Shown here: positions 1,858-7,764 of the stretch, one piece after another | How positions within the stretch are numbered: position 1 is the first letter of the stretch | Layout of the letters: each line of letters opens with the position of its first letter | Assembly (NCBI GenBank): GCA_947445225.1 | Contig: CANFCX010000016.1 | Span: 1-33,742, forward strand | Direction of reading: 5' to 3' | Source: Rhodospirillales bacterium | Lineage (GTDB): Bacteria; Pseudomonadota; Alphaproteobacteria; CACIAM-22H2 | Length of the DNA stretch: 33,742 bases | Program-made: the position numbers and the translations under genes | The notes under the pieces: generated by a model | What the model was told of the DNA's origin: nothing | The model's input: only the letters and a program-made list of their open reading frames with translations | Database searches by the model: none

Positions 1858-2739
1858 TTAGCCCGCGCGCCGGAGGGCGGCCGCGACGTCGCCGGATAGG
1901 GCCTCAAAACGCGCCGAGAGAATTCGGGCGGCGCTTCCGGAATCGGCTTCGCACGCCCGGCACATGGCGATCGAGGTGAAGGGAGCAAAGATCATGCGTG
2001 TCGCGCGCAGGAGGAGCTTCAATTCGGTTTCCGTTTTCGGCGTGAGCATGGCCCGCGCCCGCGCCAGCCGCCGCTTCAAAGTCTCATCGCCCTGCGCCTG
2101 ACGCCCGATCATTCGCCGGGTTATTAGATGAAAGAGCCTTTGCCGTCGATGGAATTCCTTGACGCAGCAAAGCGGATACCCGAGCACGCCCGCCTCCTCG
2201 CTTACGCCAAGCCTGGAACCGGCCAAACGGCGGAGCGCGGCCTCGCTTCTCGGCGGGCCGACAAACAGGAGTTGCGTCGCCGCCAGGTCTTCGCAAAGGG
2301 CCTCGTCATACCAACTCTGGCCGGAGTTTCCCGATTCGCCGATCCAGGGCGGCCCGTCGAACGCGGCCAACCCCGCGCGCGCGGCGGCTGCCGCAATCGC
2401 CACCCGAAAGGCGGTGGAATCGAAGCCCCAACCGACCGCGGCGAAGGGTTTGATCCCGGCCGCGACCGCCAGAACATCGAGCGCATCCTGGGCTGCCGCC
2501 GCGCGCGCCTCCGGCGGCGCCACCTCGATGGCGGCGGCGCAGTCCCTGGCCAGCGGCGACGATGAGCCTTCCATCGCGTCAGTATAGAAAGTTTCGCGAT
2601 GGCCGGCCGAACGGATCGTCGCCCACTCGTCATCCGTGCCGAGCAAGGTTAGAATAAGGGTGCCCTCGATCCAGTCTCGAACCGGCGGGGTGGGAAGCCG
2701 ACCCGCGACCAATGTCCCAACCAGCCACGCAAGAGCCAC
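1858..2739 (-). CDS. DUF483-like conserved hypothetical protein
   Basis: 293 aa ORF with LGYPLCCVKEFHRRQR (GYPxCCVxxF-like motif) and MCRACE; coding-like composition. Start codon uncertain; as given it overlaps the divergent nadQ-like gene by 28 bp. Confidence 0.6.
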   Translation of the reverse strand: MALAWLVGTLVAGRLPTPPVRDWIEGTLILTLLGTDDEWATIRSAGHRETFYTDAMEGSSSPLARDCAAAIEVAPPEARAAAAQDALDVLAVAAGIKPFAAVGWGFDSTAFRVAIAAAAARAGLAAFDGPPWIGESGNSGQSWYDEALCEDLAATQLLFVGPPRSEAALRRLAGSRLGVSEEAGVLGYPLCCVKEFHRRQRLFHLITRRMIGRQAQGDETLKRRLARARAMLTPKTETELKLLLRATRMIFAPFTSIAMCRACEADSGSAARILSARFEALSGDVAAALRRAG

Positions 2740-3701
2740 CGGCCCCCAGGGCGGAATTCGCCGTCAGCGTCGATCTGACCGCGGTCGTCGTGGCCGTGAC
2801 CGACGACCAACCCCGCGTCCTTATTGTCCGCCCGGCGGAGGCTTCGACCGGAGGGCTGGACGCATTGCCCTCCGGTCCTCTTGAACTCGGCCACCGGACG
2901 CTCGAATCCGGCCTGCGTGCCTGGGTGGAAGCCCAGGCCCGCGCCAAGCTCGGTTACATCGAGCAGCTCTACACCTTTGGCGACCGCGACCGAACCGCCC
3001 TGAAAGTGCCGACCGGCCGCATCCTTTCGATCGGTTATCTGGCGCTGGCGCGGGAAACCGGGGCGGCCGCCGCCAACACCTCGTGGCAGGATTGGTATCG
3101 GTATTTTCCGTGGGAAGATTGGCGGCGGGGCCGGCCACCCATCCTCGATCGGCTGGAGCCGAGGCTGCGCGGTTGGGTGGCGGCGGGGCCATCGCGGGGG
3201 GAACAGACCACACGCAAGACCCGGATCAGCGTGGCCTTCGGGCTGGACGGCGCCCGCTGGAGCGAGGAACGGGTGTTGGAGCGATACGAGCTGTTGTACG
3301 AAATTGGCCTAGCCGCCGAGGCTCACCGCGACGGCTCGCCGACCGGAGACCCCGAATCCGATGTGCCCACCGAGGCGCAACCGATGACCGCCGACCACCG
3401 CCGCATCCTGGCCACCGGCATCGCCCGCCTGCGCGGCAAGATCAAATATCGCCCGGTCGTCTTCGAGCTCATGCCCCCGGCTTTCACGTTATTGCAACTC
3501 CAGCGCACCGTGGAGGCATTGGCCGGGCTGCGCCTGCACAAACAGAATTTCCGGCGCCTGGTCGCCCAACAAGGCCTGGTCGAGGAGACCGGGGGAATGG
3601 TCACCGGCACCGGCGGCCGCCCCGCCCGCGAGGTCCGTTTCCGGCAGGAAGTGCTCATCGAACGGCCGGCGCCGGGCCTGCGCCTGCCGATCGCCCGCTG
3701 A
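2712..3701 (+). CDS. nadQ: NrtR/NadQ-type transcriptional regulator of NAD biosynthesis (Nudix-like N-domain, winged helix C-domain)
   Basis: C-terminal KIKYRPVVFELMPPAFTLLQLQRTVEALAGLRLHKQNFRRLVAQQGLVEETGG...GGRPAREVRFR is typical of the NrtR winged-helix domain; immediately upstream of nadABC. Confidence 0.82.
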   Translation: MSQPATQEPPAPRAEFAVSVDLTAVVVAVTDDQPRVLIVRPAEASTGGLDALPSGPLELGHRTLESGLRAWVEAQARAKLGYIEQLYTFGDRDRTALKVPTGRILSIGYLALARETGAAAANTSWQDWYRYFPWEDWRRGRPPILDRLEPRLRGWVAAGPSRGEQTTRKTRISVAFGLDGARWSEERVLERYELLYEIGLAAEAHRDGSPTGDPESDVPTEAQPMTADHRRILATGIARLRGKIKYRPVVFELMPPAFTLLQLQRTVEALAGLRLHKQNFRRLVAQQGLVEETGGMVTGTGGRPAREVRFRQEVLIERPAPGLRLPIAR

Positions 3702-3769
3702 CTCGCTCGGGCCGCTTCCGGTATGTCGATGCGGGAGGTCATTCGTTGTAACCTCAACGTAAAATCCGC

Positions 3770-3800
3770 TTGACTTTCTTATGCTCAAGATTAGCATAAT
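3770..3800 (+). promoter_or_regulatory. Candidate nadABC promoter: TTGACT (3770-3775) and CATAAT (3795-3800)
   Basis: Near-consensus hexamers, spacer 19 bp (somewhat long), 62 bp upstream of the nadA start. Confidence 0.45.
3779..3799. promoter_or_regulatory. Putative NadQ operator site 1
   Basis: TTATGCT-CAAGATT-AGCATAA: perfect 7-bp arms, overlapping the candidate promoter spacer and -10. Confidence 0.65.
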
Positions 3801-3833
3801 CACTCCCTTTTTTGGGGCAATTCGCGCACACTA

Positions 3834-3850
3834 ATGCTCAAATTGAGCAT
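3834..3850. promoter_or_regulatory. Putative NadQ operator site 2
   Basis: ATGCTCAA-A-TTGAGCAT: perfect 8-bp arms, just upstream of the nadA Shine-Dalgarno AGGAGG (3851-3856). Confidence 0.7.
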
Positions 3851-3861
3851 AGGAGGCGTCA

Positions 3862-4881
3862 GTGACGATACTGGCCGAGGTCCAGCCGGCGACCGAATCC
3901 CGCCCCAAGCGGGCCGAAAGCGCCGCGCTTTATGAGCGCGTGCGCCGTGTCGTGCCGGCCGTGGAGTGGCCGGTCTTCGCCCCCGACATCGACGCGATCC
4001 TGCGGCTGAAGCGCGAGAAGAACGCCGTCATCCTGGCGCATAACTACCAGACGCCGGAGATCTTTCACTGCGTCGCCGATATCGTCGGGGATTCGCTGGC
4101 GCTGGCGCGCGAGGCGGCGCGGACGCAGGCCGATGTCATCGTCATGGCCGGCGTACACTTCATGGCCGAGACCGCGAAGCTGCTCAACCCGACGAAAACC
4201 GTCCTGATCCCGGATATGAAGGCCGGCTGTTCGCTCGCCGAATCCATCACCGCCGCCGATGTTCGCCTGTTGCGCGAACGTTATCCCGGCGTGCCGGTGG
4301 TCAGCTACGTCAACACCTCGGCCGAGGTAAAGGCCGAGTCCGACATTTGCTGCACATCGGGCAACGCCCGCGCCGTGGTCGAATCCATGGGCACCGAGAG
4401 CGTCATCATGCTGCCCGACGAATTCCTGGCCCAAAACATCGCCGCCGAGACAAAGGTGAAGATCATCGCCTGGAAGGGTCGATGCGAGGTGCATGAACGT
4501 TTCAGCGCCGCGGACATCATTACGCTTCGCGCCAACCATCCGGGAATCATCGTGCTCGCCCATCCCGAATGCCCGCCCGAAGTGGTCGCGGAAGCCGATT
4601 ACGCCGGTTCGACCAAGGGGATGAGCGATTATGTCGCCCGCGAAAAACCGGCCCAGGTCGTGCTGATCACCGAATGTTCGATGAGCGACAATGTCGCCGT
4701 CCAGCATCCGGAGATCGACTTCGTGCGGCCCTGCAACCTCTGCCCGCACATGAAGCGGATCACCTTGCCCAAAATCCGCCGCGCGCTGGAAACCATGACC
4801 CACGCCGTCCACATCGACCCGGCCATGGCGGCGCGGGCGCGGCGTGCGGTCGATCGAATGCTGGCGGTCGGGCCGCGTTGA
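3862..4881 (+). CDS. nadA: Quinolinate synthase NadA
   Basis: 339 aa, GTG start, AGGAGG 5 nt upstream; [61 protein letters not shown] motifs. Confidence 0.97.
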
Positions 4882-6449
4882 GCGGCGAGACGTCCACTTT
4901 ACGAACCGAAGCGGTCGTCGTCGGCGCCGGCATTGCCGGCCTGACCGCGGCGCTGCGTTTGGCGCCGAAGCGGGTCATCGTGCTGAGCGCCGCCCCGCTC
5001 GGCGAAGCGGCCGCCAGCACCTGGGCGCAGGGCGGCGTCTCCGCGGCACTCGATGCCGGCGACAGTCCCGAGATTCACGCCGCCGACACACTCGCCGTCG
5101 CCGGCGGCATCGCCGACCCCGCGATCGTGGCCGGCGTCACCGCCGAGGCGCAAGCCCGCATCGAAGAATTGGGCGCGCTCGGCGTGCGTTTCGACCGGAC
5201 CGGCGACGGTAAACTCCGTCTCGGCCGCGAAGGCGGACACAGCCGCCATCGGATCGTCCATGCCATCGGTGACGGCACCGGCGGCGAAATCATGCGGGTT
5301 TTGACCGCCGCCGCCCGCGCCAGCGAACACATCACCCTGCTCGACGGCGCGCTCGCGCGGTCGTTGCTCGCCCCCGGATCAATCGTCGGGGTGCTGGTCG
5401 AGCGCGGCGGCGAAACCGTCCAACTGCTCGCCGATTCCGTCGTCCTGGCCACCGGTGGGATTGGCGGGCTCTATCGCTTCACCAGCAACCCGCTGACGGC
5501 GCGCGGGCTGGGGCTGGCGCTGGCCGCTCGCGCCGGCGCCGTTCTGTCCGATCTCGAATTCGTTCAATTTCACCCGACGGCGCTCGATGTCGGACGCGAT
5601 CCCATGCCGCTGGTCACCGAGGCGCTGCGCGGCGAAGGTGCGGTGTTGCTCGACGCGGCCGGGCAGCGTTTCATGCCGGCGCTGCATGAATTGGCGGAAC
5701 TCGCCCCCCGCGATATTGTCGCCCGCGCCGTCGCCAGACACCGCGCCTCCGGCCGCGTTTTCCTCGACGCCCGCGCCGCCCTCGGCCAATCCTTTCCCCA
5801 GCGTTTTCCGACGGTCTTCGCGGCCTGCCAAGCCGCCGGGCTGGACCCGCGAACAACACCGATCCCAATCGCGCCGGCCGCGCATTACCACATGGGCGGA
5901 GTCTCCACCGATGGCGTCGGGCGCAGCTCCCTTGCCGGCCTTTGGGCCGTGGGCGAGGTGGCCGCCACCGGTTTGCACGGCGCCAACCGGCTGGCCAGCA
6001 ACTCCTTGCTCGAAGCCTTGGTCTTCGCCACCCGCGCCGCCAATGACATCAAGGGACGCACGCCGTCCTCGGCAAAACCCGGGCCGGCCACCCCGGTGAT
6101 GACCGGCCGCGCGGTCGAAACGCCCGCCTTCGCCCGCGTGCGCGCGTTGATGACCGAAGCGATCGGCGTCGAGCGCGAAGAACAGGGGATGCGCCGGGCG
6201 CTCGCCGAACTGCGGAATTTGCGGGCGGAAATCGAGCCGGTTTCCTGGCCGCAAGGCGCCGCGACGCTGGTCGCCGAGATGGTCGCGACCGCGGCCCTGC
6301 GCCGGCGCGAAAGCCGCGGCGCCCATTTTCGCACCGATCACCCGGCCGCCCAGCCCGCTTTGGCGCGGCGCAGCTACCTGACGTTGGCGGAGGTCGGGAC
6401 CGACATCGCGGCCGATGCCGAGGTTCCCAGGCGCAAGGCCACCCCATGA
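4878..6449 (+). CDS. nadB: L-aspartate oxidase NadB
   Basis: FAD-binding [83 protein letters not shown]. Start trimmed from the supplied ORF to TTG at 4878, overlapping the nadA stop (TTGA). Confidence 0.95.
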
Positions 6450-7300
6450 CGCTTGCGCCACTGCCCCTCTTGATCATCGAGCCGTTGGTGCGTGCCGCTT
6501 TGCTTGAAGATTTGGGCGCCGCCGGCGACATCACCACGGCCAGCGTCGTGCCCGAGGCAACGCGCGCGCGCGCGGTCATCGCCACGCGGCAGAACGGCAC
6601 CGTCGCCGGCCTCGATTGCGCGCGGCTGGCCTTCCACTTGCTCGATCCCAGCATCGACATCGCCATCCGCTGGCCGGAGGGCAGCAAGGTCGCGGCGGGA
6701 GAAACCATCGCCGTGGTCAGCGGCCCGGCGCGGCCGATCCTGAGCGGCGAACGTGTCGCCCTCAATTTCATGGGGCATTTGTCGGGCGTGGCGACGGCCA
6801 CCGCGACCCTGGTCGACGCCATCGCCGGTCAGCGCGCCCGCATCGTCTGCACACGCAAAACCACGCCCGGCCTCCGCGCCCTCGAAAAACACGCCGTGCG
6901 ATCGGGCGGCGGCCTCAATCACCGTTTCGGTCTCGATGACGGCGTTCTGATCAAGGACAACCACATCGCCGCCGCGGGCGGCCTGCGGCCGGCCATCGAC
7001 CGCGCCCGCCGCGCCATCGGCCATATGGTCAAGATCGAGGCCGAAGTCGAATCCCTGGCCCAGCTCGAAGAAGCGCTGGCGGCCGGTGTCGATGCCGTGC
7101 TTCTGGACAACATGGCGCCGAAACTGCTGGCCGAGGCGGTGAAGGTGATCGGAGGCCGCGCGATCAGCGAGGCGTCGGGCGGCGTCACCCGCGCAACCGT
7201 GGCGGAAATCGCCGCCACCGGAGTCGATTTGATCTCCGTGGGTTGGATCACCCACAGCGCACCGGTCCTCGATCTCGGGCTGGATTTCGAGTCAGACTAA
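6446..7300 (+). CDS. nadC: Nicotinate-nucleotide pyrophosphorylase (carboxylating) NadC
   Basis: LEDLGAAGDITTASVVP, LNFMGHLSGVAT, ARIVCTRKTTPGLRALEKHAVRSGGGLNHRFGLDDGVLIKDNHI; ATGA overlap with nadB stop. Confidence 0.97.
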   Translation: MTLAPLPLLIIEPLVRAALLEDLGAAGDITTASVVPEATRARAVIATRQNGTVAGLDCARLAFHLLDPSIDIAIRWPEGSKVAAGETIAVVSGPARPILSGERVALNFMGHLSGVATATATLVDAIAGQRARIVCTRKTTPGLRALEKHAVRSGGGLNHRFGLDDGVLIKDNHIAAAGGLRPAIDRARRAIGHMVKIEAEVESLAQLEEALAAGVDAVLLDNMAPKLLAEAVKVIGGRAISEASGGVTRATVAEIAATGVDLISVGWITHSAPVLDLGLDFESD

Positions 7301-7341: not shown

Positions 7342-7764
7342 ATGAGCAGTATCCCGATTTCGGTTTCCGGCCTGACGGCCAGCACCGCGCGCCTCGCCGC
7401 CAGTGCGTCCAACGTCGCCAACGCCAGGACTCGGGGGCCGGTGCCGGAAGCGCCGGCGACAACCCCGCCACCCGCTGACCAAAAGGACAAACCCGAGGTC
7501 TATCGGGCCGTGGACACGGTGCAGACCAGCACGCCTGGCGGCGGCACACGCGCCACCTACCGGACCCGGCAGCCGGAATTCGTTCAGGAATTCGATCCCT
7601 CATCCCCGCTCGCCAACGAAGACGGGTTGGTGGCGGCGCCCAATGTCGATATCGGCGGCGAAGTCGTCGAGCAGATAAAGGCCGAAGGCGCGTATAAGGC
7701 GAATCTGAAGGCCGTTCAGGTCGCCGACGACATGATGAAGAGCCTGCTCGACATCAAGGCCTGA
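7342..7764 (+). CDS. Orphan flagellar basal-body rod (FlgC/FlgB-like) family protein
   Basis: N-term ISVSGLTASTARLAASASNVANARTRG and C-term GLVAAPNVDIGGEVVEQIKAEGAYKANLKAVQVADDMMKSLLDIKA match the conserved ends of rod proteins. No other flagellar gene in the window. Confidence 0.78.
   Translation: MSSIPISVSGLTASTARLAASASNVANARTRGPVPEAPATTPPPADQKDKPEVYRAVDTVQTSTPGGGTRATYRTRQPEFVQEFDPSSPLANEDGLVAAPNVDIGGEVVEQIKAEGAYKANLKAVQVADDMMKSLLDIKA

Follow-up and report, generated by a model that had tools for sequence, protein, structure and literature searches.

The window analysed here, a whole stretch of 33,742 nucleotides from a Rhodospirillales bacterium, carries two palindromes between a regulator gene and nadA, and raises the question of which protein would bind them and what each of the two sites would do. 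The initial annotation had read them as a helically phased pair of NadQ operators, whose bound dimers could loop or cooperate on one face of the DNA. The features that bear on this question are the following.

2712..3701, plus strand: nadQ, 329 aa, a NadQ (COG4111-type) regulator with a C-terminal NrtR-type winged helix and, by homology to solved NadQ, an N-terminal effector domain.
3770..3797, plus strand: predicted promoter P1 from a consensus scan, with -35 TTGACT at 3770-3775, a 16-nt spacer and -10 TAGCAT at 3792-3797.
3779..3799, no strand: O1, TTATGCTCAAGATTAGCATAA, predicted promoter-overlapping NadQ operator in which a polar T substitution completes the -10.
3800..3831, plus strand: leader between O1 and O2, with a weak TCCC-T6-GGGG stem and the T-run in its loop; relatives have a GC hairpin and U-tract here.
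3832..3852, no strand: O2, TAATGCTCAAATTGAGCATAG, predicted symmetric NadQ operator at about +38 of the leader, abutting the Shine-Dalgarno.
3852..3856, plus strand: Shine-Dalgarno GGAGG of nadA, read from the sequence.
3862..4881, plus strand: nadA, quinolinate synthase, the first operon gene, with a GTG start (Pfam NadA E 2.9e-113; NCBIfam equivalog above cut-off).
4881..6449, plus strand: nadB, L-aspartate oxidase (NCBIfam NF005701 662 bits against a cut-off of 528; TIGR00551 485.9 against 452.75).
6446..7300, plus strand: nadC, quinolinate phosphoribosyltransferase (TIGR00078 322.7 bits against a cut-off of 198.4).

Both palindromes were found where the initial annotation had placed them (3779-3799, and 3834-3850 for the core of the second), upstream of an operon for de novo NAD synthesis whose genes nadA, nadB and nadC were identified by profiles. 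The NadQ motif, as given in the available part of its publication (Leyn et al. 2016, PMC5343134), is ttATRCTCannntGAGYATaa, and both sites fit it: scored against this motif, the 17-mer core of O1 (3781-3797) agrees at 13/14 consensus positions and that of O2 (3834-3850) at 14/14. The centres lie at 3789 and 3842, 53 bp apart, and the O2 17-mer ends one base 5' of GGAGG (3852-3856), which bears out the claim that it abuts the nadA Shine-Dalgarno. Across the whole 33.7 kb, exactly two matches to ATRCTCANNNTGAGYAT with at most two mismatches were detected, namely O1 and O2, compared with a mean of 0.12 in shuffled sequence and two matches in 0/100 shuffles; their occurrence is far above chance. 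At the scale of the genome (2.6 Mb), O1 and O2 have no equals within one mismatch of the motif, and six further sites with two mismatches were found elsewhere, compared with 1 for a control pattern. Downstream of nadC lies a small ORF (7342-7764) whose translation, on visual inspection, looks like a flagellar basal-body rod protein (MSSIPISVSGLTASTARLAASASNVANARTRGPVPEA...).

Judged by homology, the gene at 2712-3701 encodes a true NadQ. Its product matches the 'NADQ transcription factor' of PDB entries 7q91, 7q92, 7q93 and 7q94 over residues 20-329 (phmmer E 2e-102), near full length, and contains the Pfam NrtR_WHD domain at residues 250-306 (E 6e-18), but it reaches only 55.7 bits against the cut-off of 400 for the NCBIfam NrtR equivalog. 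NrtR, the Nudix-related NAD regulator, shares with NadQ the homologous C-terminal winged helix and targets in the NAD pathway, whereas NadQ differs from it in both motif and effector domain, and the window protein stands far below the NrtR cut-off; of the earlier label 'NadQ/NrtR-type', NadQ proper can be kept, while NrtR is matched only partly, mainly in the winged helix. The motif scan of the window revealed no NadQ site at the start of nadQ, and so no sign of nadQ autoregulation. A 293-aa ORF on the minus strand (window 1858-2739), with no match in Pfam or NCBIfam, is divergent from nadQ, and its start overlaps that of nadQ by 28 bp. Within the family of the window, and among the relatives up to G022, full NadQ occurs in genus g1 only (G000-G002), and no NadA was found in three family members from other genera; the nadQ-nadABC cluster may have been gained in genus g1 or lost elsewhere.

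We analyzed the co-occurrence of the motif and its regulator by listing NadQ and NadA in 385 alphaproteobacterial genomes and taking the DNA upstream of nadA from 87 NadQ-positive and 33 NadQ-negative genomes, with a site defined by at least 12/14 matches. Conservation before orthologous nadA genes, chosen beforehand as the test on which the operator assignment should stand or fall, was observed in 84/87 NadQ-positive genomes, compared with 2/33 genomes without detected NadQ and 0.005 sites per region after shuffling the upstream regions (Fisher p 6e-23, a value not corrected for relatedness in a sample that spans many families). Both exceptions come from incomplete assemblies (G249, 80% complete; G358, 83%), which may be the simple reason why no NadQ was detected in them. 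Taken with the published consensus and the NadQ gene next door, this co-occurrence supports the assignment of the palindromes to NadQ. The upstream regions of the 87 NadQ-positive genomes carry one site in 31 cases, two in 49 and three in 4, that is, two or more in 53/87, and the 31 single-site genomes indicate that two operators are not obligatory. O2 is kept in two congeners of the window organism (L018, L019).

The spacing of the two sites gave a different result from the one proposed. While the arithmetic behind 'about five turns' is correct, with 53 bp equal to 5.05 turns, and one other member of the genus also has 53 bp, the meaning attached to it did not survive comparison with relatives. 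Counting the window, 58 centre-to-centre spacings were measured in NadQ genomes; they form a tight class of 22-29 bp (mode 26) and a broad long class of 51-78 bp (mode 59), with spacings of 36, 88, 97, 121 and 131 bp outside both. With a tolerance of 1.5 bp, 12/58 correspond to a whole number of turns, against 16.6 expected, and 28/58 to a half-integral number; the modes themselves correspond to 5.6 turns (59 bp) and 2.5 turns (26 bp), the long class shows no 10.5-bp periodicity (Rayleigh p 0.24), and the second congener, whose NadQ is 96% identical, has a spacing of 51 bp. Spacing conserved at integral turns, as a helically phased pair would display, was not found in this sample. Phasing of O1 and O2 for looping or cooperation of bound NadQ dimers on the same side of the DNA is therefore very improbable, and we reject that proposal; the five-turn spacing in the window is most simply read as a coincidence. 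The tight class represents a second architecture (L022, L024-L026, L195, L213, L214) in which 22-29 bp separate the NadQ sites and TTGAC precedes the first of them; its spacing has a mode of 26 bp in the alphaproteobacterial sample and is often 28 bp in Mesorhizobium, and no hairpin is present between its sites.

The two sites differ in their relation to the promoter. As the initial annotation had suggested, O1 overlaps a candidate promoter: TTGACT-16-TAGCAT at 3770-3797, the sole promoter-like match in 3600-3900 (0.1 expected), spans the operator, and transcription is predicted to start at about 3803-3805. This arrangement is recurrent among relatives. TTGAC was found at O1 in 29/38 long-spaced alphaproteobacterial pairs, compared with 0.44 in shuffles, and starts at -19 of O1, as in the window, in 12 of the 29; it was found at O2 in 1/38 pairs, and at a similar position with respect to O1 in 23/24 betaproteobacterial loci. 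The asymmetry of the operator is confined to one side: its gene-side half is altered from TGAGCAT to NTAGCAT. At position +3 of O1, the 38 long-spaced genomes have T in 25, A in 2, C in 1 and G in 10 (non-G in 28/38), the mirror position -3 has C in 37/38, and position +3 of O2 has G in 38/38 (non-G 0/38); these sites were searched with at most 3 mismatches, which makes the exact +3 fractions somewhat dependent on the threshold. In the betaproteobacteria, position +3 of O1 is T in 24/24. A T at +3 produces TAGCAT, which agrees with a -10 hexamer at its first T, its A and its last T, and we infer that O1 has been modified to carry the -10 of the promoter. The combined pattern TAGYAT-gap-operator, present in 7/399 genomes of the phylum, is too strict to inform.

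Taken together, we assign a probability of about 0.9 to the reading that O1 and O2 are NadQ operators controlling nadABC, with promoter occlusion at O1, added repression downstream of the promoter at O2, and release by an effector. A NadQ dimer on O1 would cover the -35 and -10 of the only recognisable promoter and block RNA polymerase, and a second dimer on O2 would repress from about 38 bp into the transcript. A site at about +38 lies too far downstream to hinder polymerase binding, so O2 most likely acts on elongation, as a roadblock. Binding of the effector would then free NadQ and allow nadABC to be transcribed; the signal is reportedly ATP, which is said to release a distant NadQ from DNA in a paper of 2022. 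It is extremely improbable that O2 acts in RNA instead, with the transcribed palindrome folding to mask the Shine-Dalgarno. The position of O2 against GGAGG and a possible 7-bp stem with a 3-nt loop in the window sequence would suit such folding, but the same motif occurs in O1, upstream of the predicted start, and tracks the presence of NadQ, genomes differ widely in how far O2 lies from the gene, and in several betaproteobacteria O2 overlaps the probable start of nadC, which has no Shine-Dalgarno close to it. In addition, the loci of 20 relatives matched no Rfam family up to E 5.

The leader between the operators, as conserved in relatives, adds a further element to the NadQ reading. In many alpha- and betaproteobacteria, a GC-rich hairpin followed directly by a T-run lies between O1 and O2. 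With strict criteria (4 or more GC pairs and 5 or more T in 7; expectations from dinucleotide shuffles), it was detected in 23/37 alphaproteobacterial O1-O2 spacers against 0.9 expected, including L154, L159, L165, L173 and L174, and in 16/24 betaproteobacterial spacers against 0.4 expected, including L021, L031, L044 and L073. The stems differ in sequence between relatives. A similar strict test of the 220 bp before nadA found the hairpin in 22/37 long-spaced genomes and 9/34 genomes with a single site or another arrangement, compared with just 1/16 short-spaced and 1/33 NadQ-negative genomes. The distance from the end of the T-run to the O2 centre is 19.8 +/- 1.3 bp in 31 alphaproteobacteria and 18.4 +/- 0.6 bp in 24 betaproteobacteria, although the small spread in the latter, which are mostly close kin, is weaker evidence than that in the former. 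By comparison, the distance from O1 to the U-tract varies (sd 5.9 in the alphaproteobacteria; Levene p 4e-5), so that the U-tract keeps a near-fixed register of about 18-21 bp with O2 and no fixed register with O1. The betaproteobacterial gene downstream of O2, where read, is mostly nadC, and in L031, L036, L023 and L027 its likely start codon lies inside O2 (ATGAGCAT), preceded by the U-tract only and by no Shine-Dalgarno.

In many genomes the next gene upstream is nadQ, and the hairpin and U-tract could be merely the nadQ terminator. We consider this unlikely: the hairpin persists where nadQ is far off or on another contig (G055, G183, G280, G137, G375), and hence is not simply a terminator of that gene, and it follows the conserved promoter P1 and keeps an almost constant distance to O2. 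When a tightly bound protein halts polymerase, the active centre of the enzyme comes to rest about 14 bp short of the edge of the site, which for O2 means about 22-24 bp short of its centre and so coincides with the U-tract of the relatives; roadblock-assisted termination in these genomes would in this sense amount to a quantitative prediction. As a tentative possibility, short of even odds, the relatives would have an intrinsic terminator close to the promoter, with NadQ on O2 stalling polymerase at its U-tract; the leader would be an attenuator governed by a DNA-binding repressor, of which the window would keep the roadblock part only. The enrichment of the hairpin in long spacers, its scarcity in short-spaced and NadQ-negative leaders, and the contrast between the near-fixed U-tract-O2 distance and the variable O1-U-tract distance argue for it, and roadblocking by a regulator bound near the promoter is, in the available parts of two reports, an established mechanism (PMC6237814, PMC4132739). 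On the other side, the U-tract could serve translation or be an unrelated conserved feature of the leader, and the window and its congeners are without a proper terminator. In the window, no intrinsic terminator was called and no GC hairpin with U-tract, as an attenuator would have between promoter and gene, was found; the T-run, 29 bp from O2, is enclosed in the loop of the weak TCCC/GGGG stem. The stem is better in one congener, again with the T-run in the loop, and the other has a different sequence.

Still more tentatively, we suggest that the control of nadABC or nadC by NadQ has two coupled steps in many alpha- and betaproteobacteria, with O1 occluding a promoter whose -10 lies within the operator, and O2 a roadblock at a near-fixed distance from a terminator, such that its occupancy would set the extent of termination. 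The window would represent a form in which the hairpin is degenerate, and for it we propose promoter occlusion and a possible roadblock only. If the two-step scheme is true, the agent of attenuation would be a DNA-binding repressor, in place of RNA, a ribosome or an antiterminator, and bench work on NadQ that treats both sites as equivalent operators would miss the arrangement of terminator and O2. The near-fixed U-tract-O2 distance in two proteobacterial classes offers a directly testable case of a repressor that uses termination. A limited literature search, which is weak evidence, found no prior account of a nadABC leader terminator or of roadblock-assisted intrinsic termination.

For the window, a predictable regulatory unit is confirmed and the looping claim removed, and the NadQ operators at nadABC are a known system, here in a new lineage. 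The likeness to the NadQ regulon, as presented in the available parts of its description (PMC5343134; PDB 7q91-7q94), extends to the regulator family, the palindrome, the target nadABC and the position of nadQ beside the operon, whereas the new lineage, the paired operators, the asymmetry of an O1 imprinted with the -10, and the order O1-hairpin-U-tract-O2 distinguish the present case from what those parts of PMC5343134 contain. The possible role of O2 resembles roadblock regulation by C.Kpn2I (PMC6237814) and LacI (PMC4132739), in which, according to the available parts of both sources, a regulator bound just downstream of the promoter stalls the elongating polymerase. An intrinsic terminator at the stall point does not figure in those parts; unlike these systems, the relatives analysed here have a U-tract at about the place where the RNA 3' end would lie in a stalled polymerase.
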